A DNA stretch of 64,000 nt from Bacteroidales bacterium. Its GTDB lineage: Bacteria; Bacteroidota; Bacteroidia; Bacteroidales; UBA932. Location of the stretch: assembly GCA_017400135.1 (NCBI GenBank), contig JAFPVJ010000012.1:1-64000 (forward strand). The letters are read 5' to 3'. The translations under genes were made by a program, and so were the position numbers. The notes under the pieces were generated by a model, which was given only the letters and a program-made list of their open reading frames with translations, was not told the DNA's origin and ran no database searches. Of the stretch, positions 41,716 to 54,015 are shown piece by piece (positions within the stretch are counted from its first letter, which is position 1; each line of letters begins with the position of its first letter).

Positions 41716-42612
41716 TTATCTTTCAAGGGTATCAAAACGGGGTTTGGCAGCGTCTGCCAGGCGTCCGAGGCCGGTGAAAACGGCGCCTTCCGGGGCGAGA
41801 GTCACTTCGATGCCGTCGAGGGCGTTGCGCAGGGGGCGCTCGAAGAGAGGCAGGGATTTGCTGATCTGGCCGGCGAGGAGGAGGGTGCCGATGTGGAGTT
41901 CTTCCAGGATCGGGGCCAGGGCTTCGCCAAAGGTTTCGCCGAGGTCGCTGAAGACCTGCAGGGCAGCTTCGTCGTCGTTTTGGGCGAGGTGGGCGATCTG
42001 GGCGGCGGAGAGGTCGCCGCGGCCGGTGAGGCGTGTGTAGGCGGTGCGGAGGCCGCGGGCGGAGACAACGTCTTCGAGGATGCCGTCGCCCCAGGGCAGG
42101 TTGTAGATGGGCCGCGCGGGCGATCCCGTCGGCCCGACCTGCACACGCCCATTCTCTTTATGTGCGAACCCCAAACCCGTACCAATCGTTACCAGAGCCA
42201 CATTTTCACCTTCGCAGCCAAGAAGAGCGGCAATCACGTCGTGACAGAAGAATATGTCGGCATCTTCGGGAAGGCCCGCCAAGGCGCGGAAAGATTCGCC
42301 GTACACGGCGGCGAATTTGTGCCGCATCAGGAAGATGCCCTTCTCGTAATCGAACGGTCCGGGAATCGCGACGGCAAGCGCCGGCGACTGCGGGGTGGCA
42401 GGGGAGTTCGGGCAGCATTCCCCCGAAGGGGTTAAACTTTCTGCTGCCCGAACTCCCCTGCCACCCGGCACCAAGCCGGCGACAGCAAGCCGGAGGGCGG
42501 TGGCGATCTCATCGCGCGAACCGGCGGACGGCATCGGAATGCACCGCCCGTCGGAACACTTGATGAAAGTGCCCCCCACATCCAAAAGCAGCCTGTCGCT
42601 ATGCCGGATCAT
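41716..42612 (-). CDS. ROK-family sugar kinase carrying insert A1
   Basis: This 298-residue protein has the ROK ATP-binding loop LLLDVGGTFIK (8-18), VAIPGPFDY, the catalytic-region FFCHDVIAALLG and ALVTIGTGLGFA. It should phosphorylate a hexose imported by the locus. The classic Cys-rich zinc motif of ROK proteins is not evident. Residues about 44-79 (AGLVPGG...PQSPA) are not part of the ROK fold; they are encoded by the perfect 25-bp inverted repeat of element A1. They lie between the first helical segment and the strand LAVAIPG, where a loop can be expected. The gene overlaps the preceding one by 14 nt. Confidence 0.82.
   Translation of the reverse strand: MIRHSDRLLLDVGGTFIKCSDGRCIPMPSAGSRDEIATALRLAVAGLVPGGRGVRAAESLTPSGECCPNSPATPQSPALAVAIPGPFDYEKGIFLMRHKFAAVYGESFRALAGLPEDADIFFCHDVIAALLGCEGENVALVTIGTGLGFAHKENGRVQVGPTGSPARPIYNLPWGDGILEDVVSARGLRTAYTRLTGRGDLSAAQIAHLAQNDDEAALQVFSDLGETFGEALAPILEELHIGTLLLAGQISKSLPLFERPLRNALDGIEVTLAPEGAVFTGLGRLADAAKPRFDTLER
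42378..42483 (+). repeat. In-frame palindromic insert A1
   Basis: The 106-nt element begins GCGCCGGCGACTGCGGG and ends GCACCAAGCCGGCG. It contains a perfect 25-bp inverted repeat (42393-42417 and 42442-42466) with a 24-nt loop that itself pairs CCCC/GGGG. It shares its outer ends with A2 and A3. In the ROK gene it is read from the opposite strand and stays open. Confidence 0.8.
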
Positions 42613-44581
42613 ACTGATAACCGTCCCTCAGGCAAGTCTTGTGGACGCGGATCGGCTCCACGCCCAGATTCTCAATCACATACCGCTCCATCGAAGCCGG
42701 CACGCAAGCGATTTCCATGAACTCCAGGTCGAAGAACCGCTCCGGATGAGCCACGCTCCGGATCCGCACCTTCTCCCCGTCCACCAGCGTCAGCACGTGG
42801 AACTTCTCGCCCTCCGTATCCTGCTCGCAAGCGCGTTCGAACTCCAGCCGCCGCAGCGAAATGTACATCTGCGGATTCTCCCCCAGGATGTACTCCTGCC
42901 AGCCCGGGCCCTCGCAGTCGAGCCGAGGCTCCTGCACGATGTATTCCGTGCTCTGCGGATCGTGGATGACGCTCTTGCGTCGGTCCTGGCGCACGTTCAG
43001 CTCGCCCAGGCGCGTGTGGATGGGCCGCTGCTTGCCGTCGAAGTCCAGGCGCAGGTAGTCATACATCTTGTACGTGTACGATCCGATCGTCAGCGAACCG
43101 ATCTCCAGGATGACCTGGTTGCGCCCCGAGGAATGGATGGTCCCCGCCGGCAGCATCACCTGCAGGCCGGGGCGCGACTCCTCGTAACTGACGTATTTCA
43201 TATAGTCGCAGGGCCTGTGCTCCGTGTCCGCCGCCTCGATTTCGCGGAAGAACGCCGGAATGTCGGCGTCGTCCCGGAAGCCGATGAAGGTCTTGGCCTC
43301 GTGGCCGGTGATGACGACGTAATAACTCTCGTCCTGACGGCCGAATTCGTCATAGTTCTCGACATTGAAGGCGCCGCCGCTGTGGCACTGGATGGACATG
43401 TTGCCCGTCGAGTGGTAGGAGTCGTCCCAGTTGAAGCGGATGGGGAAATATCCCTTGTACTTGCGAACGCAGTCCTCACCCATTAGGCTAACACCTTCCT
43501 TGTGGACGAAGGAGCAGTAGTTGATGTCCAGCATCTCTTTCCCAGCCTCGACCAGCACGCTGACTTCCATCGGAATGAAGTCGAATACCCAGGCGGCGTT
43601 GCGCATTTCCCGGGGCAGGCCGCGGAGTTTCTTCATATAGGTGCCGCCCCAGACGCCCTCCAGGTAGCAGGGCTTGGCGCGGAAGGGGTATTTGACCAGT
43701 TGGGCGCAGACGTCGGCGAAGGCGGCGAAGGGCATCATCTGGAGATGGCGGCGGTCGTTGTCAAGGAAGAACCAGTCAATTTCGCCGGTCTGGAGGAGTT
43801 CCTTTCGGATCTGGACAGCGTTTTCGAAGTCGCAGTAGTAGCAGCGGCGGATGGTGCGGTTGATGATGCCGGTGCGCTCTTTGCCGAGGTTGGCGTATTC
43901 GCCGGCGCGGATGCGGAGCATGGCGTTCTTAGGGGTGATGTCGAACCAGCACCGCACGTCATAGAGGTCCCGCAATTGCTTGCACAGGCACCCGTAGCCG
44001 TAGACGGCGATAATTCTGTCGCCGGAAGGGGCCTGCCGGCTCTCGAGGGCTTCCCGAAATGCTTGGACCTTTTCGGGGTCCATCAGGCCCTCGTAACCGC
44101 CGTGCCAGATTTTTCCGTAGAGCAGCGTCGGATCGATCTTTTTGTCCCAAATCAGCAGGGGATCAATGATATCGTCGATCTCCTTGCCGCTCTTGTAAAT
44201 GGCCGCGGCGGCATCAACCGTCTCGAACGGAATGCCGAGGATCTCGAACTCGCGGTTCAGCAGATTGAGCAGCAAATCCCACTGCGCCGTCGTATAACCG
44301 TCGAACGCTACCACTAACGTTCGCGCCGGCGACTGCGGGTCCGGCGATGGGTTGAGGGGAGCATTCCCCGGCAGGGTTTTTCCCTGCTCCCCGATGCCCG
44401 CGCCGGACCGCACCAAGCCAGCGGGTACGGCTTTCAGGCGTTCGGCGAGCGCCAGCGCAAGCCTTTTTGCGACGGCAGGTGTCCCGCCACCAACAATGCT
44501 ATCGATAGTCCCCTCGGCGAGCGCCGGCCGGTTCACCGGCTTCGGATCGTCATACGGGAACGGATTATACATGAAACTCAT
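42599..44581 (-). CDS. Class I mannose-6-phosphate isomerase-like protein, insert A2
   Basis: This 660-residue protein has an N-terminal nucleoside/sugar-kinase-like domain (about 20-290: IVGGGTPAVAKRLALALAERL, LVVAFDGYTTAQWD, IIAVYGYGC) and a C-terminal cupin-type phosphomannose isomerase domain (about 310-640: GVWGGTYMKKL, NIQCHSGG-like MSIQCHSGGAFNVENY, LPAGTIHSSG with metal-binding His). The C-terminal part would interconvert mannose 6-phosphate and fructose 6-phosphate; the role of the N-terminal part is unknown. Residues about 54-87 (AGLVRSG...PDPQSPA) are encoded by element A2 and interrupt the N-terminal domain at a loop after AERLKAVP. With GH130 nearby this points to mannose use. 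Confidence 0.75.
   Translation of the reverse strand: MSFMYNPFPYDDPKPVNRPALAEGTIDSIVGGGTPAVAKRLALALAERLKAVPAGLVRSGAGIGEQGKTLPGNAPLNPSPDPQSPARTLVVAFDGYTTAQWDLLLNLLNREFEILGIPFETVDAAAAIYKSGKEIDDIIDPLLIWDKKIDPTLLYGKIWHGGYEGLMDPEKVQAFREALESRQAPSGDRIIAVYGYGCLCKQLRDLYDVRCWFDITPKNAMLRIRAGEYANLGKERTGIINRTIRRCYYCDFENAVQIRKELLQTGEIDWFFLDNDRRHLQMMPFAAFADVCAQLVKYPFRAKPCYLEGVWGGTYMKKLRGLPREMRNAAWVFDFIPMEVSVLVEAGKEMLDINYCSFVHKEGVSLMGEDCVRKYKGYFPIRFNWDDSYHSTGNMSIQCHSGGAFNVENYDEFGRQDESYYVVITGHEAKTFIGFRDDADIPAFFREIEAADTEHRPCDYMKYVSYEESRPGLQVMLPAGTIHSSGRNQVILEIGSLTIGSYTYKMYDYLRLDFDGKQRPIHTRLGELNVRQDRRKSVIHDPQSTEYIVQEPRLDCEGPGWQEYILGENPQMYISLRRLEFERACEQDTEGEKFHVLTLVDGEKVRIRSVAHPERFFDLEFMEIACVPASMERYVIENLGVEPIRVHKTCLRDGYQYDPA
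44323..44423 (+). repeat. In-frame palindromic insert A2
   Basis: The 101-nt element begins with the same 17 nt as A1 and ends GCACCAAGCCAGCG. The 37-nt core hairpin at 44356-44392 (arm GGGGAGCA, centre CCCCGGCAGGG) is nearly identical to the core of A4, and outer arms GGTCCGGCG/CGCCGGACC pair. It is open in the antisense frame used by the host gene. Confidence 0.8.
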
Positions 44582-44587
44582 AAGCCT

Positions 44588-46051
44588 CTACCTTATATCG
44601 TAAAACTCCATGCCGCACAGCGCCGCGAAATCCGCCAGCTCAGCTCGCCAATCCCCGTCCACGATCGCATAATGCTGCGTCGCCCCGATGCGCAAGACCC
44701 GCTCCCACAATTCCTTCACCGGCACTTCCGGCCGGAAAATCGTATGGCTGTAGGTCGCCAGCAGGTGCTTGACGGAACTCTGCGGCGTCTGAGCCGCATC
44801 CAGCGACTCCGCCAGGAACGTAATCAGCTTATACTTGCCACCCTCCTCGTACAGACCCGCCACCGTCTTCATCCCCGGACTGATGCGATACCAGGCGAAC
44901 GGCGCTCCGGCATACTTCCACGAAGTCTTCGCGAAACGCACGTCCCGCGCGATCACCACGTTCTGCTGCCACGCCGGGTCGTTGTGGTCGTTTGGCCCCG
45001 CGTGCCCGCCGGCGAACGTACCGAAATCGTCCTCGATGTGGAAAGGCTCGATGAAATTGACATTCCGGCCGCTCAACAGCTTCAGGACGTAGGTCGCCAG
45101 CCCCGCGCCGATGTCGGCCTCCGGCACCAGCACGCTCACGTTCTCGTTGAACCACTGCGGATAGAACCCCGCCCGACATCCGGCCGTGCGGAAGGTCGCC
45201 TGGTCGATGTCGTTGTAGACATAGCAGTCGATATCGTTCTTCTCGGCCATCTTTTTGATAGCCAGAGAGGCCTTGACACAGCCGATGAACTTGTCGTATT
45301 CGACATCCTCCATCATCTTGTATTTGCCCGTGAGTTCGTCGGCGTACGCCTTGACTTCTTCGTCGGTAAGCGCCTCGATTTCAGTGCCATAGTCGCTGTA
45401 GGGCAGGTAATGGATCTCCGGGCCGAGCTTCGTGAAGAGGTCATAATTGTCGAGATACGTGCTCCACATCGCCTCGTTCATGTTGGCCATCAGGCCCACG
45501 CTGGACTGGCGCAGGATAGCCCGGGTCCGGGCGGCGTTGGCGTAGGTCTTCAGGCGTGCGGTCACTTCTTCCCGCGTCCCCAGGACGGTGGTCACGCCCT
45601 CCCGGGGCACACGCTTGACGCTCCCGGAAGCTTCCAGGGAGCCCACGAGCGTGCCCGCGCAGAGGTAATCGACGAAATCATCCTCGTCCAGGGTCGTCTC
45701 AAACGTCATCCGCGGCTTGGCCACGTTGGCGAAAAGGATGGGGATGTCCGGGCAGTCGCGCAGGAAGCGGATCCAGGCGAAATCTTCGCTCCAGGAGAGG
45801 AATTCGGCATAGATGAAATCGACTTTCTCGTCGAAGAAAAGGCGGATGGCGCGCTCGGCGTCTTCGCGCTCGTAGACGATGCCGGGGTCGACCAGGTCGA
45901 GGAAGTCCATCGTGGCCTTGATATCGCGCACGGCCACTTCCTTTCGCTCCCCGTAGGTGCCGCGCTTGGGGCCGGAGAGGTTCTTGAAGCGCGGGGAAGC
46001 CACGAGCAGCAGTCCTGCCTTGGACTTCCGTTGTTTCAGCGTTTTATTCAT
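44588..46051 (-). CDS. L-fucose/L-arabinose isomerase-family protein
   Basis: This 487-residue cytosolic protein belongs to the FucI/AraA isomerase superfamily, which interconverts aldoses and ketoses with a divalent metal. Visible blocks include GLLLVASPRFKNL, RRDCPDIPILFANVAKP-like PDIPILFANVAKPR, GLMANMNEAMWSTYLDN, GPEIHYLPYSDY, ADIGAGLATYVLKLLSGR (metal-site region) and GTFAGGHAGPNDH near the C terminus. The exact sugar cannot be decided. It overlaps the MFS stop by 4 nt and is followed after 6 nt by the M6P-isomerase-like gene, consistent with a sugar imported by the MFS and routed into glycolysis. Confidence 0.7.
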   Translation of the reverse strand: MNKTLKQRKSKAGLLLVASPRFKNLSGPKRGTYGERKEVAVRDIKATMDFLDLVDPGIVYEREDAERAIRLFFDEKVDFIYAEFLSWSEDFAWIRFLRDCPDIPILFANVAKPRMTFETTLDEDDFVDYLCAGTLVGSLEASGSVKRVPREGVTTVLGTREEVTARLKTYANAARTRAILRQSSVGLMANMNEAMWSTYLDNYDLFTKLGPEIHYLPYSDYGTEIEALTDEEVKAYADELTGKYKMMEDVEYDKFIGCVKASLAIKKMAEKNDIDCYVYNDIDQATFRTAGCRAGFYPQWFNENVSVLVPEADIGAGLATYVLKLLSGRNVNFIEPFHIEDDFGTFAGGHAGPNDHNDPAWQQNVVIARDVRFAKTSWKYAGAPFAWYRISPGMKTVAGLYEEGGKYKLITFLAESLDAAQTPQSSVKHLLATYSHTIFRPEVPVKELWERVLRIGATQHYAIVDGDWRAELADFAALCGMEFYDIR

Positions 46052-47376
46052 TGTATGTGGATTTTGTCATAATCTTTCTGGTAGCACAGGCGCCCGATGA
46101 TCAGGAGCGCCACGCCCGTGACGGCCCAGATCACGCCGAGCAGGGGGAAGGTGGCGCTGAGGCTGCCCATGCTTTCTTTCATGGCGCCGAGGATGACCGG
46201 GGCGAGGGCGCCGACGGCGAATCCGGTGGTGATCATGGCGCTGGAGCAGGAGGCGTGCAGGCGGGCGGGGGTGACGTCGTAGAGGACGGTGTAGATGTTG
46301 GCGTCGAAGAAGGCGCGGAAGAAGCCCCAGCCGGCGAAGCAGGCGTAGAGGATCCAGAGGACGCGGTTGCCGCCCATGAGGAAGAGGAATACGGCGCCGA
46401 GGAGGAGGCCGGCGCCTTGGATGTACATGCGGAGTTTGTGGTCGCGGGCGCCGATCTTGTCGGAGAGGGTGCCGGCGAGGAGGACGCCGACAAAGGCGGC
46501 GACGTAGGTCCAGAGCATGGAGTGGAGGCCGGCCATTTCCTGGTTTTGGCCGAATTCTTCCTGGAGGTAAGCAGGGACCCAGGTCATGTAGCCGGTGATG
46601 ACGAAGATGAAGGCACTGAAGCCGAGGGTCAGCATTAGGGCCGTTGGCGTCGTGAAGACGGTCTTGAAGCCATCTAAGATACCGGGCTTGGATTCGCCGG
46701 CCGGTTTGGTGCGGGCCGGCGCGTGCTTCGGAGAGCCGGAAAGGGACCCTTCGGGGAAGGCTCCCCTCAACCCGTCGCCGGCCCCGCAGTCACCGGCCTG
46801 TGTGGGCTCTTCGAAATCCTTTAGTCTCAATATCATAATGATTCCCCAAACGATGCCGGCGGCGCCGAAGAGGATGAAAGAGTATTGCCAGCCGAGGGAG
46901 TCGGCGATTTTGCCGGCGAGCCAGCCGGCGAGGATCACGCCGACATAGTAGGCGGTCTGGTGAATGGACATGGCTCGTGCCCGGGTGTCGGTGTGGTACT
47001 GTCCCAGGAGGGAATAATTGGCGGGACCGAAGAAGGCTTCTCCGCCGCCGGTGGCGATCGAACGCATCAGGACCAGCATCACCACACCGTTTGCCAGGCC
47101 CGTGAACATCGTCGCGACGCTCCAGAACAGGATGCTGATCGTCGTGACCCACTTACGGCTGAATCGGTCGCCCGCCCAGCCTCCGAGCGGCACCATGATG
47201 GCGTAGAAGAGGTTGAAAACCGTTGCGATCAGACCGACGGAGGTGTCCGTCAGGCCCAGGCTGTCCCGGATGGCGGGCAGCACGGTATTGAAGACCTGCC
47301 GGTCCGCCTGGTTGAGCAGAAAGGCCATCCAGAGCAGGGCCAGAACTTCCCATTTATATAATTTGTGGTTTCTCAT
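46048..47376 (-). CDS. MFS sugar/sugar-acid transporter carrying insert A3
   Basis: This 442-residue inner-membrane transporter has twelve predicted segments in two six-helix halves and the MFS loop motif GGWAGDRFSRKW after TM2. It resembles hexuronate/sialic-acid type MFS carriers and should import the mono- or disaccharide released by the locus. Residues about 193-227 (AGDCGAGDG...ARTKPAG), in the central cytoplasmic loop between TM6 and TM7, are encoded by palindromic element A3. It heads the nine-gene operon, with a -33/-7 promoter and the shared 21-bp operator directly upstream. Confidence 0.83.
   Translation of the reverse strand: MRNHKLYKWEVLALLWMAFLLNQADRQVFNTVLPAIRDSLGLTDTSVGLIATVFNLFYAIMVPLGGWAGDRFSRKWVTTISILFWSVATMFTGLANGVVMLVLMRSIATGGGEAFFGPANYSLLGQYHTDTRARAMSIHQTAYYVGVILAGWLAGKIADSLGWQYSFILFGAAGIVWGIIMILRLKDFEEPTQAGDCGAGDGLRGAFPEGSLSGSPKHAPARTKPAGESKPGILDGFKTVFTTPTALMLTLGFSAFIFVITGYMTWVPAYLQEEFGQNQEMAGLHSMLWTYVAAFVGVLLAGTLSDKIGARDHKLRMYIQGAGLLLGAVFLFLMGGNRVLWILYACFAGWGFFRAFFDANIYTVLYDVTPARLHASCSSAMITTGFAVGALAPVILGAMKESMGSLSATFPLLGVIWAVTGVALLIIGRLCYQKDYDKIHIQ
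46696..46799 (-). repeat. In-frame palindromic insert A3 (inverted)
   Basis: On the minus strand the element reads CCGGTGACTGCGGGGCCGG and continues as A2 does (GGGTTGAGGGGAGC, TTCCCCG, AGGGT, CGCGCCGG, CCGCACCAA), so it is homologous but inserted in the opposite orientation relative to its host gene. Its frame is open although it is translated from the other strand than in A1 and A2. Confidence 0.78.
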
Positions 47377-47384
47377 CGGTGCAA

Positions 47385-47405
47385 GTGTGGTGTACTGTGG
47401 TGCAA
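47385..47405 (-). promoter_or_regulatory. 21-bp shared operator, copy 2
   Basis: Identical over 21 bp to 29683-29703. On the minus strand it overlaps the last three bases of a -7 box TAAATTTG (47410-47403), which has a TTG 20 nt further upstream, so it spans the transcription start of the MFS-to-DUF6259 operon. It ends 8 nt before the MFS ATG. The divergent promoter at 47444 faces the other way. Confidence 0.75.
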
Positions 47406-47433
47406 ATTTATGAAAAAAACGTGCATTCTACAA
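47403..47433 (-). promoter_or_regulatory. Promoter of the SusCD-containing operon
   Basis: A -33 TTG and a -7 TAAATTTG (47410-47403) on the minus strand are separated by 20 nt, a good Bacteroidota match, 26 nt upstream of the MFS start codon. Confidence 0.65.
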
Positions 47434-47443
47434 GTCATTTTAT

Positions 47444-47451
47444 TATTTTTG
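47444..47451 (+). promoter_or_regulatory. -7 element of the phosphodiester-glycosidase operon
   Basis: TATTTTTG matches TAnnTTTG and ends 22 nt before the ATG at 47474. It excludes the in-frame TTG at 47468 as the better start only weakly, but the ATG gives the normal lipoprotein signal. Confidence 0.5.
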
Positions 47452-47473
47452 TGGTGGACTGAGCGTTTTGTTT

Positions 47474-49042
47474 ATGCGATTGTTACGTTTCTTCGCCCTT
47501 TGGACGATGTTGAGCCTGGTTGCCTGTGGGGAGAAGCCCGCACCGCCCGAGGCGCCACCCGCGGATCCGACGGGCCTGGCCGTTGAGCAGCTGACATCGA
47601 GTTCAGCGAGGCTAAGCTGGACGGCGGCGAGGGATGCGGCTTCGTATTATGTGTTCGCCCGGGGGGCCGGGGATGCGTATTACACGACGCCGACGGCCGA
47701 GCTTCCGGCTGGAAGTTCCAGCTATGAATTCACCGGCCTGACGCCGGGGGCGAGCTATTACTTCGGGGTGCAGGCGGTCGGCAAGGAGGGGAAGACGCTC
47801 TCGAAGATTTCCTATTCCGAACTGACAAAGATCATTGATTATGAGAATCTTCCGCGGGCGGTCGTGACGGCGTGCGAAGCCGGATATGCCTGCCTGGCAG
47901 TGCGCTATCAGCTGGAGAAGGTGCCGGAATCGGCGCCGGAGCATGGAATCTGCCTCAGCGCGTCGGGCGCTCCGACGGTGAGCGACATCTGCCTGAGAGG
48001 GCCGGCGCTTCCCGATTCCAGGGAAGTGTATCAAGTCGTGCCGGGGGCCGTCCTGGAGGCGGGTCGCGACTACCGGATGAGCGCCTACGTGAAATCGGGC
48101 GGCGAGTATTGGTACAGTGAGCCTGCTACGGTTCGGCTGGCAGACCAGCCCGCACCCATTCATCTGGACTGGACACGGGTTTCCTCGCCGACGCTGCCTT
48201 CTGCGATCGAAGTCTATGAGACGGCGTCGCAACTGAACGGGCGCGCATTCCACGCCTGGTATGCGGTCGCAGACTGCACGGGAGAGGTGGAATTCCGCGT
48301 GCAGAACCCTTCCGCCGTGGCGACTGTCGATGCGCAGGCGGGAGCGGACTGCTGGGTTCTGATCAACGGTGGCATCTATGGCACCAAGCATATCGGGGTG
48401 ATCATCGCCGACGGGGTGAAACAGGCTTGGCGGGACGAGGTGGACGGCAGTTATTGGGCGTATGATTCGAAGTTGTACAACATCACGCGGGCGGCGTTCG
48501 GAACGGATGCGGCCGGGAAGCCGGCGACGTATTGGGTGAGCGCGCCTTCCGCTACCGAACTGTACTGGTACGACAGGCCGCTGCCTTCCGTGGTGGGAGA
48601 GGCGCTTTACGGTCTCGCGACTTCGACCTTCCCGGGACCGGCGGTATCTTGGAGTCCCCGGCAGGCGATCAGCACGGGGCCGATGCTGCTGTACAAGGGG
48701 CAGTGCTGCGTGGACCGGGTTTCGACGGCAGCCGGGCACTATCGGACGAATTACGAAGTCTGGGCGAAGGACATTTTCCCGCCGCATCCCGACCGCACGG
48801 CGGTAGGATATACGGCGGACGGACGCATCGTACTGTTTATTTGCGATGGCCGGATCGCTTCGAGCGACGGGGCGTATGTGGATGAGGTGGCGCTGATTCT
48901 GAAAGACATCGGCTGCGTCGGGGCGATCAACCTGGACGGCGGCGGTTCGACGGGCATGGTCGTGGCCGGGGAGCATCTGAATGATCAGACCGGTGGCAAC
49001 CGCGCCGTGCTTTCAACATTGGGATTTTTCAAGAAGAAATAG
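47474..49042 (+). CDS. Lipoprotein with Fn3 and phosphodiester glycosidase (NAGPA) domain
   Basis: From the ATG at 47474 the protein has 522 residues. A lipoprotein signal (LSLVACGEK) and a fibronectin type III domain (about 30-115: PTGLAVEQLTSSSARLSW, GLTPGASYYFGVQAVG) come first, then a second beta region. The C-terminal domain (about 270-520) ends in GYTADGRIVLFICDGR and VGAINLDGGGSTGM, the signature of the NAGPA/DUF2233 family. This family hydrolyses sugar-1-phosphodiesters such as GlcNAc-1-phospho-6-mannose. Outward-facing hydrolysis of a phosphodiester in the target glycan is inferred. It is followed after 3 nt by the GH130 gene. Confidence 0.8.
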   Translation: MRLLRFFALWTMLSLVACGEKPAPPEAPPADPTGLAVEQLTSSSARLSWTAARDAASYYVFARGAGDAYYTTPTAELPAGSSSYEFTGLTPGASYYFGVQAVGKEGKTLSKISYSELTKIIDYENLPRAVVTACEAGYACLAVRYQLEKVPESAPEHGICLSASGAPTVSDICLRGPALPDSREVYQVVPGAVLEAGRDYRMSAYVKSGGEYWYSEPATVRLADQPAPIHLDWTRVSSPTLPSAIEVYETASQLNGRAFHAWYAVADCTGEVEFRVQNPSAVATVDAQAGADCWVLINGGIYGTKHIGVIIADGVKQAWRDEVDGSYWAYDSKLYNITRAAFGTDAAGKPATYWVSAPSATELYWYDRPLPSVVGEALYGLATSTFPGPAVSWSPRQAISTGPMLLYKGQCCVDRVSTAAGHYRTNYEVWAKDIFPPHPDRTAVGYTADGRIVLFICDGRIASSDGAYVDEVALILKDIGCVGAINLDGGGSTGMVVAGEHLNDQTGGNRAVLSTLGFFKKK

Positions 49043-49045
49043 TTT

Positions 49046-50185
49046 ATGAGATTCAGGGTTTTTGTCGTGCTGGCTGCTGCCTGGGCGTTTGTGTCTTGCC
49101 AGAAAGGAGTTCCTTCCTCCGATCTTCCGGATTGGGCGATCGGACCCTTTTCGCGGCCGGTTTCCGGTCCGGTCATCGCTCCGGATGCGGGTCTGTGTTT
49201 CGATTGCCCGATGTTGGGAATGCCGGTGAAATGGGCTGAGGGCGCTGCCTTCAATCCGGCCGCAACGCTCCGTGACGGCCGCATTGCCGTCCTGTTCCGA
49301 AGTGAAGACGACCTTAACCAGGGCATCGGCACGCGCACGTCCCGATTGGGCCTGGCCTGGACCGATGACGGTTCTTCCATGCAGATCGAGCCTTCGCCTG
49401 TCCTGTTCCCGGATGAAGATTCGCAGAAGGAATATGAATGGCCCGGCGGCTGCGAGGATCCTAGGGTCGCGGTAACGGGGGACGGGCTCTATGTGTGCCT
49501 GTATACCCAGTGGAACCGGGAATGCCCCCGGCTCGCCGTCGCCACTTCCCGGGATCTGCACACCTGGACCAAGTACGGGCCGGCTTTCGCCCAGGCTTGG
49601 GAAGGACGTTTCCGCGACATCCCGACCAAGTCGGCGTCGATCGTGACGGAACTTCGCGACGGGGCGTTGGTCATCCATCGTTTCGATGGAGAAGGGCCCT
49701 TCGCCGGCAAGTATGTGATGTACTGGGGCGAGGCATTCGTGAACGTGGCGGTGTCTGACAACCTGACGGACTGGACCCCGTTGCTCGCGGAGGACGGCTC
49801 CCTGCTTCGGGTGCTGGAGCCGAGGGACGGGTATTTTGACAGCATGCTGACGGAATGCGGGCCGCCCGCAGTCTTGACGCCTGCCGGTATCATATTGATA
49901 TACAACGGAAAGAACGCCCGGGAAGAGGGTCAGCGGGATCCTTTGGTGGGGGCGGAAGCGTATTGTCCCGGAGAGGCTTTGTTTGACGCTTCGGATCCCG
50001 TCCGGCTCTTGGACCGGCTCGATGCTCCGGTGTTGAAACCGGAAGCGGAGTTCGAGCGCACGGGCCAGTATGCCGCCGGAACCATTTTCTCCGAAGGTCT
50101 GGTCTACCGCGACGGGCGCTGGTACCTGTACTACGGCTGCGCCGACTCCCGCGTCGGTGTGGCGGTCTGTGACCGGGCTTTGTGA
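49046..50185 (+). CDS. GH130-family beta-mannoside phosphorylase/hydrolase
   Basis: This 379-residue five-bladed beta-propeller enzyme has a signal peptide with a possible lipobox (AFVSCQK). GH130 motifs are clear: GAAFNPAATLRDGRIAVLFRSED, GCEDPRVAV with general-acid Asp138, KSASIVTE and the C-terminal AGTIFSEGLVYRDGRWYLYYGCADSRVGVA. Members cleave beta-linked mannosides by phosphorolysis or hydrolysis. An exported form makes hydrolysis more likely, since phosphorylases are normally cytoplasmic. The M6P-isomerase-like gene of the divergent operon fits mannose as the product. The next gene begins 24 nt downstream. Confidence 0.85.
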   Translation: MRFRVFVVLAAAWAFVSCQKGVPSSDLPDWAIGPFSRPVSGPVIAPDAGLCFDCPMLGMPVKWAEGAAFNPAATLRDGRIAVLFRSEDDLNQGIGTRTSRLGLAWTDDGSSMQIEPSPVLFPDEDSQKEYEWPGGCEDPRVAVTGDGLYVCLYTQWNRECPRLAVATSRDLHTWTKYGPAFAQAWEGRFRDIPTKSASIVTELRDGALVIHRFDGEGPFAGKYVMYWGEAFVNVAVSDNLTDWTPLLAEDGSLLRVLEPRDGYFDSMLTECGPPAVLTPAGIILIYNGKNAREEGQRDPLVGAEAYCPGEALFDASDPVRLLDRLDAPVLKPEAEFERTGQYAAGTIFSEGLVYRDGRWYLYYGCADSRVGVAVCDRAL

Positions 50186-50209
50186 CCGGCGGCCAGTCGA
50201 ATGATATAG

Positions 50210-51469
50210 ATGGAGGGAATTGTTTTAAAGAATGGATCGACGTGGCTGCGGATGGCGGATCCGCGGGCGGCGGAGCCGTACTACCGCGGCACCCGCTTCG
50301 ACCGTACCGGCATCATCCTCGACCTGGAATCCGGCGGCCACCGCTACATCCAGCCCTGGCAACGCCACTACGACCCCTTCTCCCACGACGCCGTTAGCGG
50401 TCCCGCCGAAGAATTCTTCCTGGACGAGATTGGACAGTCCGGCGAGTCAGGTCCGACCGACGGCGTCACTCAGCCGCAGCGAAGCGAGGATGGACGTAGC
50501 CGAGGTCGGAGCCTGCTCGCCGGCAATAGCTTCGTCAAAATCGGCGTGGGCTTGCTGCGCCGGGAAGACCGCCCCTACGACCGCTTCCATCTCTACGATA
50601 TCCTCAATCCCGGCCGCCTGACGGTCACTTTCGATCAGGCCCTCGAGACCGGCGCGGCAGGTCCGATTTTCGGCGTTACTCAGCCGCAGCGAAGCGAGAA
50701 TGGACGTAGCCGAAGTCGGAGCCTGCCCGCCGGTCCGGAGCTGACCTCAGCTACTTTCTGTCATGTTTTGGATGGATATTACGATTATGTAAAGACAGTG
50801 GAGATCCCCGCAGAAGGCCGCCTGCGCCTTTCTCACGCGCTGACCAACACCGGCCCCACACCCCTCACCGGCCACGTCTACTGCCACAACTTCTTCATCC
50901 TCGACGGCGCCCCCACCGGCCGCGCCACCCGCTTCACCTTCCCCTGGCGCCCCACCGGAGACTGGCGCGCCCCCTACGACTCCGTTCACCTCACCGACGA
51001 CGGCATCGTCTTCACCCGCGACCTCGCCCCCGAAGAAACCGTCTTCATGGGAAACATCCGCCCGGTAAGAGAAGCTTTGGGCGGTGTGGCAGGTCCGACC
51101 TTCGGCGTTGAGTCGAATGCCGTGGAGCCTGCAAAGCAAGCGATGGCGCGTCTCAACGCGCCCGGCGGAGGGCGGGACGGAGCCGAAGGCGATGTCGGTA
51201 GCCCGGGAGCCGCGGGGGATAGTAGGGAGCAGAGCCCCCTCAAAGTTGGACGTAGCCGAGGTCGGAGCCTGCCCACTGCCGGAGAAGGCTACCGCTTCAA
51301 AATGCAAAACCTGGACAACGACCTAACCGTCGAAGTCTCCTGCGACCGCCCCATGGACTACGCCGTCTTCTGGTCCAACGCCGACGTCTCCTGCCTCGAA
51401 CCCTACATCCCCTTCCACATCACCCCCGGCCAGACCTTCCGCTGGACCCTCGACTACCGCTTCCAGTAA
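50210..51469 (+). CDS. Aldose-1-epimerase-like protein with three family B inserts
   Basis: This 419-residue protein without signal peptide resembles the galactose-mutarotase-like beta-sandwich superfamily: VLKNGSTWLRM at the start, SHALTNTGPTPLTGHVYCHNFF with a His in the catalytic position, and a C-terminal ISITPGQTF-like FHITPGQTFRWTLDY. Homologous folds need only about 290 residues. Three segments do not belong to it: about 77-105, 147-175 and 291-358, each encoded by a family B palindrome and each containing GRSRxRSL. They fall between strands. It may epimerise the sugar handled by the locus. Its last 16 nt overlap the convergent sugar-porter gene. Whether the inserted protein still folds is uncertain. 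Confidence 0.65.
   Translation: MEGIVLKNGSTWLRMADPRAAEPYYRGTRFDRTGIILDLESGGHRYIQPWQRHYDPFSHDAVSGPAEEFFLDEIGQSGESGPTDGVTQPQRSEDGRSRGRSLLAGNSFVKIGVGLLRREDRPYDRFHLYDILNPGRLTVTFDQALETGAAGPIFGVTQPQRSENGRSRSRSLPAGPELTSATFCHVLDGYYDYVKTVEIPAEGRLRLSHALTNTGPTPLTGHVYCHNFFILDGAPTGRATRFTFPWRPTGDWRAPYDSVHLTDDGIVFTRDLAPEETVFMGNIRPVREALGGVAGPTFGVESNAVEPAKQAMARLNAPGGGRDGAEGDVGSPGAAGDSREQSPLKVGRSRGRSLPTAGEGYRFKMQNLDNDLTVEVSCDRPMDYAVFWSNADVSCLEPYIPFHITPGQTFRWTLDYRFQ
50439..50523 (+). repeat. In-frame palindromic insert B1
   Basis: The 85-nt element has imperfect inverted ends CCGGCGAGTCAGGTCCGACC / GGTCGGAGCCTGCTCGCCGG. The centre holds CAGCCGCAGCGAAGCGAG and GATGGACGTAGCCGA. It encodes GVTQPQRSEDGRSRGRSLLAG-type sequence in frame. 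Confidence 0.8.
50649..50733 (+). repeat. In-frame palindromic insert B2
   Basis: This 85-nt copy is exactly the same length as B1, with the same centre (CAGCCGCAGCGAAGCGAGAA) and arms CCGGCG...CGCCGG. It is in the same orientation and reading frame as B1, 210 nt downstream. Confidence 0.8.
51081..51282 (+). repeat. In-frame palindromic insert B3 (expanded)
   Basis: This copy keeps the left end (GGCAGGTCCGACCTTCGGCG) and the right end (GGACGTAGCCGAGGTCGGAG, then CCTGCC) but carries about 117 extra bases, 39 codons, in the middle, still without a stop. The extra part may be a second insertion into the element. Confidence 0.7.
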
Positions 51470-52866
51470 GCCTCAATCTCCTCCAGTGTCTTCCCCGTGG
51501 TCTCCGGGATGCGCCGCCACATGATCCACAGGTACGGCAGACACATGAAAGCGAAAAGGAAGAATGTCCCTGCCGGCGTCAGGTGAGACAGCATCCAGGG
51601 CGTCAACTGCCCGATCAGATATGTTCCCACCCAGAGCGCGAATCCGGCGATGGACATCGCCAGGCCCCGCACCCGGTTCGGGTACATTTCGCCCAGCAGC
51701 ACGAAGATGACCGCGCAGATCGAAATCGCCGTGCAGAACACGTACAGCAGGAAGAAAGTCAGCATGAACCAGGTCGGCAGATGCGTCGAAGGCAGGAAAT
51801 ACAGCGCGATCATCAGCAGGCACACGATCATCCCGCTGACTCCCCAGTAAACCAGTTGTTTACGCCCGACCTTGTCGATGATCAGCAGCGCGATTACCGT
51901 CGTCAGCATGTTGACCACCCCCACCAGCACGGTGGAGAACAGCGGATCCTCGAACCCCGCGTCCTTGAAAAACTCCGGACCGTAATACAGGACCGCATTG
52001 ACCCCCATGAACTGCCCCAGGATGGCGATCGCCGAGCCCAGTAGCACCGCCGTGCGGATGCCCGGCTCTAGCAGCGCCTTCCATTCCGACTTGACCTCTC
52101 CCGCAATGGACGCCTTCGTCAGCGCCAGCTGCGCGGAAACGTCCTCCGGGGCCGGATAGATGCGCGACAGTACGCCCCGGGCCTTCTCGTCCCGCCCCTT
52201 CACGATCAGCCAGCGCGGGCTCTCCGGAATGAAGAAAATGACCAGCAGGAACAGCAGGTCCGGAATGGTCTCATAGCCCAGCATGCCCCGCCAGTATTCG
52301 CTGTTGAACATCCGTACGCCCAGGGGCTGGATGCTGCGGATAGAGGCGCTTGTCGTGCACAGGGATGTGTCCGCGCTCTTCAGGACCAGATAATTGACCA
52401 GGTACGCGAGCAGGAAGCCCACCGTGATCGCCAGCTGGTACAGGGACACCAGCATCCCGCGCTTCTCCGGGACCGCAATCTCCGAAATGTAAGCCGGGGA
52501 GACGACCGACACCACGCCGATGCCGAAGCCGCCGATCATGCGGAAGACCACCAATTGCGTCATGCCGGAGCAGACGGCGCAGCCGATTGCCGATATGCTG
52601 AACATCAAGGCGGAAATGAGCATGGTCTTCTTGCGTCCGAGGAAATCGCTCAGCATCCCCGCCACCAGCACGCCGATGATGGATCCGATCAGCGCGCAGC
52701 CGACATACCAGCCCTTGGCCAGGTCGTCCAGGGAGAATTGCCCGGCGACGATGTCCGTCGTGCCGGAAATGACGGCCGTGTCATAGCCGAAAAGAATACC
52801 CCCCAGGGCGGCGACCACCGACAGGAACACCACATAGCCCATGCGGACATTTTTCGCAGTACCCAT
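51454..52866 (-). CDS. Sugar porter family MFS transporter (xylose/hexose:H+)
   Basis: This 470-residue inner-membrane carrier has twelve predicted helices. Sugar-porter signatures are GGILFGYDTAVISG in TM1, GMLSDFLGRKKTM after TM2, PESPRWLIVKGR after TM6, and INAVLYYGP-like VNAVLYYGPEFF in TM7, followed by DKVGRKQLVYWG and PETTGKTLEEIE at the end. It resembles XylE/GLUT-type proton symporters. Unlike most homologues it has a long TM5-TM6 loop. It is the last gene of the leftward GH116-GH127-DUF4434 operon and should take up the monosaccharide those enzymes release. Confidence 0.92.
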   Translation of the reverse strand: MGTAKNVRMGYVVFLSVVAALGGILFGYDTAVISGTTDIVAGQFSLDDLAKGWYVGCALIGSIIGVLVAGMLSDFLGRKKTMLISALMFSISAIGCAVCSGMTQLVVFRMIGGFGIGVVSVVSPAYISEIAVPEKRGMLVSLYQLAITVGFLLAYLVNYLVLKSADTSLCTTSASIRSIQPLGVRMFNSEYWRGMLGYETIPDLLFLLVIFFIPESPRWLIVKGRDEKARGVLSRIYPAPEDVSAQLALTKASIAGEVKSEWKALLEPGIRTAVLLGSAIAILGQFMGVNAVLYYGPEFFKDAGFEDPLFSTVLVGVVNMLTTVIALLIIDKVGRKQLVYWGVSGMIVCLLMIALYFLPSTHLPTWFMLTFFLLYVFCTAISICAVIFVLLGEMYPNRVRGLAMSIAGFALWVGTYLIGQLTPWMLSHLTPAGTFFLFAFMCLPYLWIMWRRIPETTGKTLEEIEAYWKR

Positions 52867-52884
52867 ACAGAAAACAATAATTAT

Positions 52885-54015
52885 TTATCGTATACCAAAA
52901 TATTCTTTATATCTATCATAAAGATGGCCGGCCTGCAGATAGGCGGACTGCGGGCTCATGAAATGCGAGAACTCGAAGGTGATCGCCTTGTCGTAACCGC
53001 AGCGGGCCGCCGCTTCCAGCTTGAGCCGGAGTTTGTCGAACTTGATAGGGAAGAACTTGATCGGCATGTCGCGGTCGAAGCTCTCCGCATTGGTCCAGCA
53101 CTGCATCCCGTACTTGTCTGCCAGCTTTTTGTTGACTGTAAAGAAGGCGTCCAGTTCATCGTAGTCGATGTGTCCGTCCTGGAAGGCGCAGGCGTCCACA
53201 TAGTCGTGGATGCCGTCGAAGATTTCGTCCCATTCCTTTTCGTGCTGGGCGACGGAGACGGCGTCATCCCGGGTCAGGGCGCCTCCGGCTGCGGCGACTG
53301 CTTTCTTGCCGTCGATCCAAGGGGAGATGAAGGTCGGCAGGCCGCCGGAAACCTCTTTGCACTGGCGTCCCATCGTACGGAAACTCTCGATCGCGCCCTT
53401 GGTGGCGCGGGAAATCTCGCCGCTGATGTACCAGCCGCCGAAGCTGTCGTACTTGCGCCCGTAGCGTTCCCAGACCTCGTCGATGACGAAACGGTTGGAT
53501 TCGACCTCGTAGCTCATGTCGCCGGTGTCCCAGTAGCGGCCGGAGTCGTAGAGGCCGAGGTAGAACTTCATCCCGTGCTTCTGGGCGAGGCGGCAGAAGA
53601 GGTCGATGAGGTCGACGGAGGGCATGTAGCAGCCCTTTTTGAGCAAGTAGGGGGAGGGGTAGGTGATGAATTTGCGGTAGCCGCAGCGGATGTCGATGAC
53701 GGTGTCGATGCCGATGGCTTTCATGTAGGCGAAGTCGGCGTCCCATTCGCGTTCGCCCCAGTTCTGGTGGGGGATGTCGTGGGAGATTTCGTCCAGAAAG
53801 GTGCCCGTAATGGGTAATCCGATTCCTGGTTCGCAGCATAGTCCGGCAGCACCCCCGCCCCCGGGGAGCAGGGAGGAACCCTTCGGGGAATGCTCCCCGG
53901 GGGTGGGGGTACCACCGGACTTCGGGGAGCCGCAGGAGGTTAGGACGGAGGGGGCGGCGATGGCTGCGGCGGCGGCCAGGGCGCTTTTCTTCAGAAAGGA
54001 TCGTCTGTCTTCCAT
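52885..54015 (-). CDS. DUF4434-like lipoprotein (TIM-barrel), insert A4
   Basis: This 376-residue protein has a Tat-like signal (RRSFLKKSALAAAAAIAAPS) combined with a lipobox Cys28 (LTSCGS). The mature domain (about 66-376: GTFLDEISHDIPHQNWGEREWDADFAYMKAIGIDTVID, YLGLYDSGRYWD, FGGWYISGEIS, CAFQDGHIDYDE) looks like a DUF4434-type TIM barrel related to glycoside hydrolases. Residues 32-58, directly after the lipid anchor, are encoded by element A4 and lengthen the tether. The gene follows the GH127 gene by 24 nt. A hydrolase role is inferred. Confidence 0.72.
   Translation of the reverse strand: MEDRRSFLKKSALAAAAAIAAPSVLTSCGSPKSGGTPTPGEHSPKGSSLLPGGGGAAGLCCEPGIGLPITGTFLDEISHDIPHQNWGEREWDADFAYMKAIGIDTVIDIRCGYRKFITYPSPYLLKKGCYMPSVDLIDLFCRLAQKHGMKFYLGLYDSGRYWDTGDMSYEVESNRFVIDEVWERYGRKYDSFGGWYISGEISRATKGAIESFRTMGRQCKEVSGGLPTFISPWIDGKKAVAAAGGALTRDDAVSVAQHEKEWDEIFDGIHDYVDACAFQDGHIDYDELDAFFTVNKKLADKYGMQCWTNAESFDRDMPIKFFPIKFDKLRLKLEAAARCGYDKAITFEFSHFMSPQSAYLQAGHLYDRYKEYFGIR
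53841..53920 (+). repeat. In-frame palindromic insert A4
   Basis: The 80-nt element has 30-nt imperfect inverted arms (53841-53870 and 53891-53920, both with ACCCCC/CCCCCGGGGAGCA pairing). The 36-nt core at 53863-53898 (GGGGAGCAGGGA...TGCTCCCC) matches the A2 core almost base for base. The outer ends differ from A1-A3. Confidence 0.75.

Follow-up and report, generated by a model that had tools for sequence, protein, structure and literature searches.

Long-stemmed palindromic elements with a conserved loop and co-changing arms, in frame and between genes, in a lineage of Bacteroidales

Four unrelated protein genes in a 64,000-nucleotide (nt) stretch of a Bacteroidales genome (GenBank assembly GCA_017400135.1, contig JAFPVJ010000012.1, positions 1 to 64,000; hereinafter the window) each contain a hairpin element that leaves the reading frame open. 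What are these elements, and how do such long stems stay complementary? The core shared by the elements is the loop of a genome-wide family, and the stems are its variable part. The complementarity of the arms is probably kept by copying from arm to arm (template switching), in a palindromic family resembling repetitive extragenic palindromes (REPs) and Rickettsia palindromic elements (RPEs).

The four elements (A1–A4) lie where the initial annotation had placed them, in limits drawn a few bases too wide, and the four open reading frames (ORFs) remain open through them. A1 lies at 42380–42480 on the forward strand (covariance model R1, E = 9e-21; the E values of the other elements are also from R1), antisense within a ROK-family gene (41716–42612, reverse strand; Pfam PF00480, E = 2e-8). 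The near-perfect A1 stem spans 25–29 bp. Specifically, its 29-nt arms (42389–42417 and 42442–42470) are 97% complementary and form 25 consecutive pairs in the predicted fold, in agreement with the perfect 25-bp inverted repeat described before. The stem encloses the conserved loop ATTCCCCCGAAGGGGTTAAACTTTCT (42417–42442, forward strand) and is flanked by an outer module, GCCGGCGACTGCGG / CACCAAGCCGGC. A2 (44325–44422, forward strand; E = 6e-10; loop ATTCCCCGGCAGGGTTTTTCCCT at 44363–44385, forward strand) lies in a gene that the initial annotation labelled mannose-6-phosphate (M6P)-isomerase-like (42599–44581, reverse strand) and that has no Pfam match at 1e-5. A3 (46699–46798, reverse strand; E = 4e-7; loop at 46737–46759, reverse strand) lies in the central linker of an MFS_1 transporter gene (46048–47376, reverse strand; PF07690, E = 1.5e-53), its orientation on the chromosome being opposite to that of A1 and A2. 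Both A2 and A3 have an A1-like outer module and are predicted to fold into bulged hairpins. A4 (53840–53921, reverse strand; E = 2e-17; loop at 53871–53890) follows the lipobox-like start of a DUF4434 protein with a lipoprotein-like N-terminus (52885–54015, reverse strand; PF14488, E = 1.6e-82); its 31-nt arms (53840–53870 and 53891–53921) are 87% complementary. A1 and A4 rank at the top of the 16 inverted repeats reported in the window, with hairpin scores of 26 and 19 versus a best score of 13 in five windows shuffled in two-base blocks.

The end motif GCCGGYGACTGCGG, claimed as common to A1–A3, occurs exactly three times in the genome that contains the window (G000; 2.31 Mb, 28 contigs, 88.6% complete), at those three elements; the seven further matches with one mismatch are within the control level (11 at up to one mismatch). 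The core GGGGAGCATTCCCCG has 32 matches with up to two mismatches in this genome versus 6 in the control, and R1 finds 34 distinct places at E < 1e-3 (40 rows, less five second-strand rows and one at E = 7.85), which is a lower bound because 150 of 890 candidates were scored. Three of these copies are cut by contig ends and one is partial; contigs C22, C24 and C16 end within a family hairpin, as expected if hairpins break short-read assembly.

The typical unit is about 80 nt long (80–106 nt for the window elements) and consists of a 27–31 bp stem and a conserved loop of 20–26 nt (GCATTCCCCGAAGGGTT...TGC). Stem length is 27–31 bp in 55 of 58 intergenic hairpins from G000 and its two sister genomes, G171 and G180, and in the 30 full copies of G000 pairing runs to about position 29 and then ends (67% paired at position 29, 33% at 30). 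In 25 of these 30, selected for at most six mismatches in 26 pairs so that worse-paired copies are left out of the averages, arms are 90% alike within an element, 40% between elements and 28% when shuffled. A comparison of intergenic copies with no mismatch filter (18, 19 and 21 copies in G000, G171 and G180, respectively), in which the pairing register was chosen to favour pairing, gives identities of 0.93, 0.86 and 0.88 within a copy and 0.41, 0.40 and 0.38 between copies (shuffled, 0.27). A faint consensus persists in the stems, which shows the copies to be related. Outside the loop, peptides encoded by in-gene copies differ from copy to copy. The exception to stem divergence is a trio, A2, A3 and the copy at locus L082, whose arms are 90–95% alike; the L082 copy sits in the linker of an 849-codon ORF in which an MFS_2 sugar transporter is fused to a GH5 cellulase domain (L082:1048-3594; contig C9 of G000, 207458–210004). 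In an Rfam scan of the window and ten element loci, no element reaches the gathering score, and the sub-threshold matches are mostly to microRNA models. A SAM-II riboswitch (62.7 bits, above gathering) lies near a related hairpin in genome G007 (L089:1687-1745).

Comparison with relatives separates inserted from inherited copies. The initial annotation had described the elements as inserted in frame, and this is established for A2: its segment of 34–35 residues is missing from all 12 congener orthologues that were aligned and from G171, which has a different element elsewhere in its M6P-isomerase-like gene. Both arms are missing from the empty site, which rules out their derivation from the target gene for A2. 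Insertion is supported for A1, the segment being absent in 12 of 12 congeners at a spot that varies in length, and A1 is present in G171 at the same codons. The linker that contains A3 is of variable length in the 11 congeners aligned, and G171 lacks the interior of the element and has a right end that looks recognisable. In genome G006 (L120) the same linker holds a different long insert (VIPSEAKSAP...), which we take from its resemblance to be possibly another repeat family. A4 occupies the same place in G171 and G180, both of which have the gene; tblastn found no homologue of the A4 gene in 31 congener loci, which span the A2 neighbourhood only. Neither of the outcomes that the initial annotation had named as counting against it, distant homologues with the same segments or an unrepeated core, occurred.

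A copy in the TruB gene is common to G000 and G180, and the broader covariance model R3 finds none in 29 congener TruB loci. An alignment of 26 of these loci (three were left out, of which one has an internal stop) shows that in several of them the loop that houses the element contains repeat-like inserts of another kind. Across the TruB loci L287–L315, many congeners have inserts of various kinds at this loop, which looks like a place where in-frame repeats land, and in some of them peptides (TQPQRSEDG) look similar to a second in-gene repeat of the window. This second repeat (ACTCAGCCGCAGCGAAGCGAGGATGG...) lies at 50436–50523, 50646–50733 and 51247–51274, and its first two copies are 88% identical.

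Overall, for 14 of the 34 copies of G000, one or both of G171 and G180 have a copy behind the same gene or at identical codons, a count that rests on the element-bearing stretches of these two genomes only. In the in-gene orthologues (ROK, TruB, DnaX and the lipoprotein), frame and flanks are kept. A good part of the family is therefore inherited within the clade, alongside newer insertions such as A2; A1 and A4, which sister genomes also have, are older.

Hairpins at shared sites change in both arms at once. Fifteen intergenic site pairs, counted with gapped pairing, hold 100 Watson-Crick double changes, 8 other doubles, 34 singles and 23 insertions or deletions (indels) in both arms; six in-gene site pairs hold 21, 7, 23 and 8, respectively. 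Two pairs between G007 and G021 and the non-orthologous M6P-isomerase-like pair are left out of these counts. In a two-site model that combines point mutation with selection for pairing (strengths 0 to 8) and takes neutral identity as 0.57, the doubles never exceed 1.4 per 29 bp and are outnumbered by singles wherever either is above zero. The observed doubles are several-fold above this expectation. Arm identity is 0.546 in 24 shared-site pairs versus 0.388 in 2382 other cross-genome pairs, and identity at fourfold degenerate sites of a neighbouring or host-region gene, one per pair, is 0.49–0.63. Arm identity is near fourfold-site identity and, therefore, the stems drift about as fast as fourfold sites. 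The loop behaves otherwise. In four comparisons of in-gene orthologues (ROK, TruB, DnaX and, between G000 and G171, the lipoprotein), 18 of 18 loop-core codons are identical, synonymous positions included, which suggests a nucleotide-level constraint on the loop.

The account that we favour is as follows. Each copy, after its insertion, would be inherited. Whenever replication lets the hairpin form, intrastrand template switching (quasipalindrome correction) would carry point mutations and small indels from one arm to the other, so that the stem would drift at about the neutral rate. The loop would escape arm correction and seems to be held by selection for a DNA- or RNA-level role. With less assurance, intergenic copies may be two-way 3'-end hairpins that serve in termination or mRNA protection, and in-gene copies may be passengers tolerated in loops and linkers. 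The more specific claim, that DNA-level arm copying and not pairing selection keeps stems of about 30 bp complementary at neutral drift, even in truB and dnaX, is made tentatively, and we regard its chances as close to balanced.

The location of the copies bears on an alternative in which pairing itself is selected. The initial annotation saw elements inside genes, and according to a simple, unpublished codon-usage gene caller written for this purpose, 12 of the 34 copies do lie within ORFs; 4 run across a called gene end and the remaining 18 fall between genes, most copies thus lying at the 3' ends of genes. Copies outside ORFs sit shortly downstream of stop codons. Of those in G000 with both neighbours called, 12 of 18 are between convergent genes, and across G000, G171 and G180 the 56 such copies comprise 42 convergent, 13 tandem and 1 divergent placements, ten of the 42 being five double-copy junctions of G180. 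For comparison, 4 of 39 gene pairs in the window are convergent by hand count. Hosts of in-ORF copies include the genes of TruB, DnaX, PriA, phosphoglucomutase, the four window proteins, the MFS_2 transporter-GH5 cellulase fusion, an FGE-sulfatase/BNR protein and an unassigned 276-residue protein with two copies. TruB, DnaX and PriA are products of essential-type genes. A Mur-ligase-like ORF of G171 (L178:1230-2744) apparently contains three family elements. In G180, loci L185, L187, L192 and L194 contain close inverted pairs of elements with 40–55 nt between model ends, in the order minus then plus; L185, L187 and L194 have one element at each gene end of a convergent pair, and L192 has both in one ORF. 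The minus-then-plus order does not hold at L186, where both elements are plus, or at L190:5086/5172, where plus precedes minus.

Compensatory evolution of functional RNA hairpins, for example bidirectional terminators in which pairing is selected on independent point mutations, would fit the position of copies just downstream of the stop codons of convergent genes. It would also fit the lower mismatch of intergenic copies (6%, 11% and 10% in G000, G171 and G180, versus 28%, 19% and 13% in genes) and an excess of G.T mismatches on one strand. On the strand that reads GCATTCCCC in the loop, G.T exceeds A.C by 61:19 in the intergenic elements of the three genomes (29 vs 7 elements, p = 3e-4), by 46 to 22 in genes (17 vs 4 elements, p = 0.007) and by 76 to 36 in the intergenic elements of six genomes (34 vs 12 elements, p = 0.0016); the hairpin of one strand thus seems to be constrained or more mutable. 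This alternative is nevertheless improbable, since the observed changes (100 doubles and 34 singles between genes, 21 and 23 within genes) stand against a model maximum of 1.4 doubles per 29 bp, since stems within coding sequence co-change too, and since T-tracts are rare. Selection for an mRNA hairpin in the middle of a gene is unlikely.

A second alternative retains the hairpins and dispenses with arm correction: junctions or codons would be re-occupied, or copies overwritten, by other family members, so that whole hairpins are exchanged. In several shared-site pairs, the arms (identity 0.24–0.43) differ as much as those of copies taken at random. In addition, the A1 and TruB copies of G000 are 81% alike in the arm, compared with 67% for their orthologues, the 90–95% likeness of the A2, A3 and L082 arms indicates that copying between genes occurs, and G171 has its element elsewhere in the same M6P-isomerase-like gene. 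Against exchange, shared-site arms are clearly more alike than non-orthologous arms, in-gene orthologues retain frame and flanks, and double changes are not in blocks (108 runs, versus 112.6 with a standard deviation of 4.7 when permuted). Nor is there any overall homogenisation of copies within a genome: same-genome copies are no more alike than cross-genome copies (0.392 vs 0.388; 299 of 2000 permutations as large). The scattered doubles and the lack of within-genome likeness favour arm copying within the same hairpin over hairpin swapping, and we consider turnover unlikely.

Several observations weigh against arm copying as the explanation, or against parts of it. Template switching is seen by its footprint only and not observed itself. 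The site pairs are not independent, some elements being used two or three times, and two of them, L074/L180 and L070/L200, hold 22 of the 34 intergenic singles. The two G007/G021 pairs show, in an ungapped count, 0 and 4 doubles versus 6 and 8 singles. The members of three pairs (L060/L186, L075/L187 and L076/L185) resemble each other no more than unrelated copies do, so that at these sites one copy may have replaced another or been inserted independently. Intergenic mismatch is 19%, 35% and 20% in G074, G021 and G007, with stems that are shorter or bulged. Conservation of the loop is partly built in, the copies having been found via the loop; the rarity of other long hairpins in the scanned loci limits this bias without removing it. 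For the intergenic copies as 3'-end hairpins, the model strand has at least four T among the 6 nt that follow the stem in 5 of 58 hairpins, and a corresponding A-run for the other strand is present in 3 of 58; these figures are weak for classical intrinsic terminators, whose T-tract most of the hairpins lack. As for the strand bias, predicted apex stability favours the opposite strand in 53 of 58 hairpins with DNA parameters and in 43 of 58 with RNA parameters, and it is rejected as the source of the bias.

The family appears to be restricted to one lineage. R1 has matches in 3 of 41 genomes, and of the 200 genomes of the genus searched with R3, 21 have matches at E ≤ 1e-4, G000 being included in both counts; these model searches scored part of the candidates only, in metagenome-assembled genomes (MAGs) that are incomplete. 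R3 returns 25, 26 and 26 rows in G000, G171 and G180, and G007, G021, G074, G192 and others have variant loops. The fetched loci contain at least 29 places in G171 and at least 28 in G180 (77 of 95 rows, the other 18 being second-strand matches). An additional copy in G171 (L269:1209-1265, contig C64; E = 1e-14), not among the matches of the genus search, marks the counts for G171 and G180 as lower bounds. R3 scores no better than E = 0.76 across 413,870 bases of congener sequence, in 70 loci that surround the gene beside the L058 copy (29), TruB (29) or the A2 gene (12); G000 and sister loci score E < 1e-11. No long hairpin was found 3' of the gene beside L058 in the 24 congeners scanned (24 of the 29 loci were usable), where gene order often differs. 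The loop 18-mer has eight exact stretches in a collection of 84,980 species, a search that may omit G000 itself; five are in the two sister MAGs, and the three elsewhere have weak R3 scores (E = 0.0017, 0.1 and 0.18). An order-wide search with 14 candidates scored per genome gives matches at E ≤ 1e-6 in 2 of 393 genomes, one of them G000. That the hairpins are chimeras of metagenome assembly is hardly credible: in its favour, a contig end truncates three of the 34 copies; against it, loop and sites are common to three separately assembled genomes, two of which are public MAGs from different sources.

Which known repeats does the family resemble? RPEs are palindromes that lie in frame in many unrelated genes, with a TruB host in R. 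conorii too (PMC3733652). The present family is likewise in frame in unrelated protein genes, with 12 of 34 copies in ORFs and an empty site for A2. RPEs are about 150 bp long and encode a conserved peptide (PMC10969869), whereas the present elements are about 80–106 nt long, are mostly outside genes, belong to another phylum and have stems and peptides that are unconserved except for the loop. Specifically, intergenic arms are about 40% alike between copies versus 27% shuffled, in place of the sequence or peptide that RPE copies have in common. The view that such in-frame palindromes are foreign to Bacteroidota is too strong, since CGTC repeats are reported in Bacteroidetes, and REPs within ORFs, that of TruB included, in several other species (PMC3733652).

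GTAG/CGTC REPs and bacterial interspersed mosaic elements (BIMEs) lie after genes, between convergent or tandem genes and in some cases in ORFs, form inverted pairs and include G-T pairing (PMC3733652). The placement of the present family, mostly convergent or tandem, is of this kind. It differs in size and form: known REPs are 20–40 bp long with 5–13 bp stems and a terminal tag, whereas the present elements mostly have 27–31 bp stems, no fixed tag, tens of copies and individually different stems. In the 12-nt flanks, CGTC and GACG occur 12 and 13 times versus about 5 in mononucleotide shuffles, and GTAG and CTAC 6 and 1 times versus 4.5 and 3.7, none at a fixed position, and a GTAG/CGTC terminal tag is rejected as a composition signal. 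As to the conserved terminal inverted repeats and target-site duplication of miniature inverted-repeat transposable elements (MITEs), stem ends are unconserved in the family, and in the A1–A3 type, which has common ends, flanks look inverted rather than clearly direct.

A further alternative is that the elements are REPs, or REP-derived doublets (REPINs), mobilised by a Y1 (HUH) transposase of the REP-associated tyrosine transposase (RAYT, tnpA-REP) type. Subclass 2.4 of these transposases, from Cyanobacteria and Bacteroidetes and abundant in the latter, has REP insertions in frame inside the tnpA-REP genes themselves (PMC6006769), and the genus is rich in Y1 genes with flanking palindromes. 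Of 35 genomes searched, 29 have Y1-like ORFs, mostly of about 290–340 residues, at E ≤ 0.1 and 22 have them above the curated cut-off, the three of G000 being below it. Those at L051, L229, L316, L318 and L319 are flanked by hairpin doublets with a centre like GG.AGC-(A/T-rich, CC)-GC..CC. These doublets consist of 35–37 nt hairpins with an A/T-CC-T spacer, and the centre of the pair resembles the family loop with the inner stem. R3 gives a weak match, E = 0.003–0.005, at one doublet locus (E = 0.003 at L316), beside the only Y1 gene found in G171. The close inverted pairs in G180 and the REP-like location (PMC3733652) point the same way.

Against this, none of 28 Y1 loci, a subset of the Y1 matches, has a clear copy of the family, which leaves an adjacent Y1/HUH mobiliser unsupported; the best other match, at L225 (E = 3e-4), is a hairpin with a 4-nt loop, and at many Y1 loci the palindromes present are different, short ones. 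Y1 matches average 3.8 in 26 genomes without R3 hits versus 4.0 in 9 with them, and no GTAG or CGTC tag stands at a fixed place. Moreover, single arms do not fold alone (mean z of 0.50, 0.29 and -0.12 in G000, G171 and G180, versus -4 to -9 in six REPs beside RAYT genes), and for this reason the element is not a REP doublet in its present form. Mobilisation by a RAYT is accordingly a doubtful origin. Because it has no short tagged stem, conserved sequence, self-folding halves or nearby cognate transposase, the family is neither RPE nor REP; it is a variant of dispersed palindromic repeats. A literature search brought up no account that we recognised of this loop or of a repeat family with fixed loop and variable stem.

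The closest parallel to the arm changes is in RNA genes. Monttinen and Löytynoja describe multi-base compensatory changes with conserved loops, which they explain by copying one side of a stem from the other, and call the strongest evidence for maintenance circumstantial (PMC8794818). The present hairpins share the excess of paired changes and the spared loop, the latter within the limit set by finding copies via the loop, and differ in being a dispersed repeat with coding copies. Long perfect inverted repeats also occur within working protein genes of Nematomorpha mitochondria; both arms there encode conserved regions, and the abstract of that report mentions no dispersed element (PMC6649704).

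With the present elements, the range of in-frame palindromes comes to include a lineage of uncultured Bacteroidales of gut type, and the shared-site hairpins in related genomes show co-change of arms beyond independent mutation. It is not settled in RNA evolution whether long stems owe their upkeep to selection or to template switching (PMC8794818). The family would allow a natural measurement of stem maintenance, with the coding copies, where a hairpin function is unlikely, as a built-in control. If arm copying is indeed what keeps the stems complementary, the family would record quasipalindrome correction in nature on the scale of a genome and would, in addition, supply in-frame peptides that change fast.

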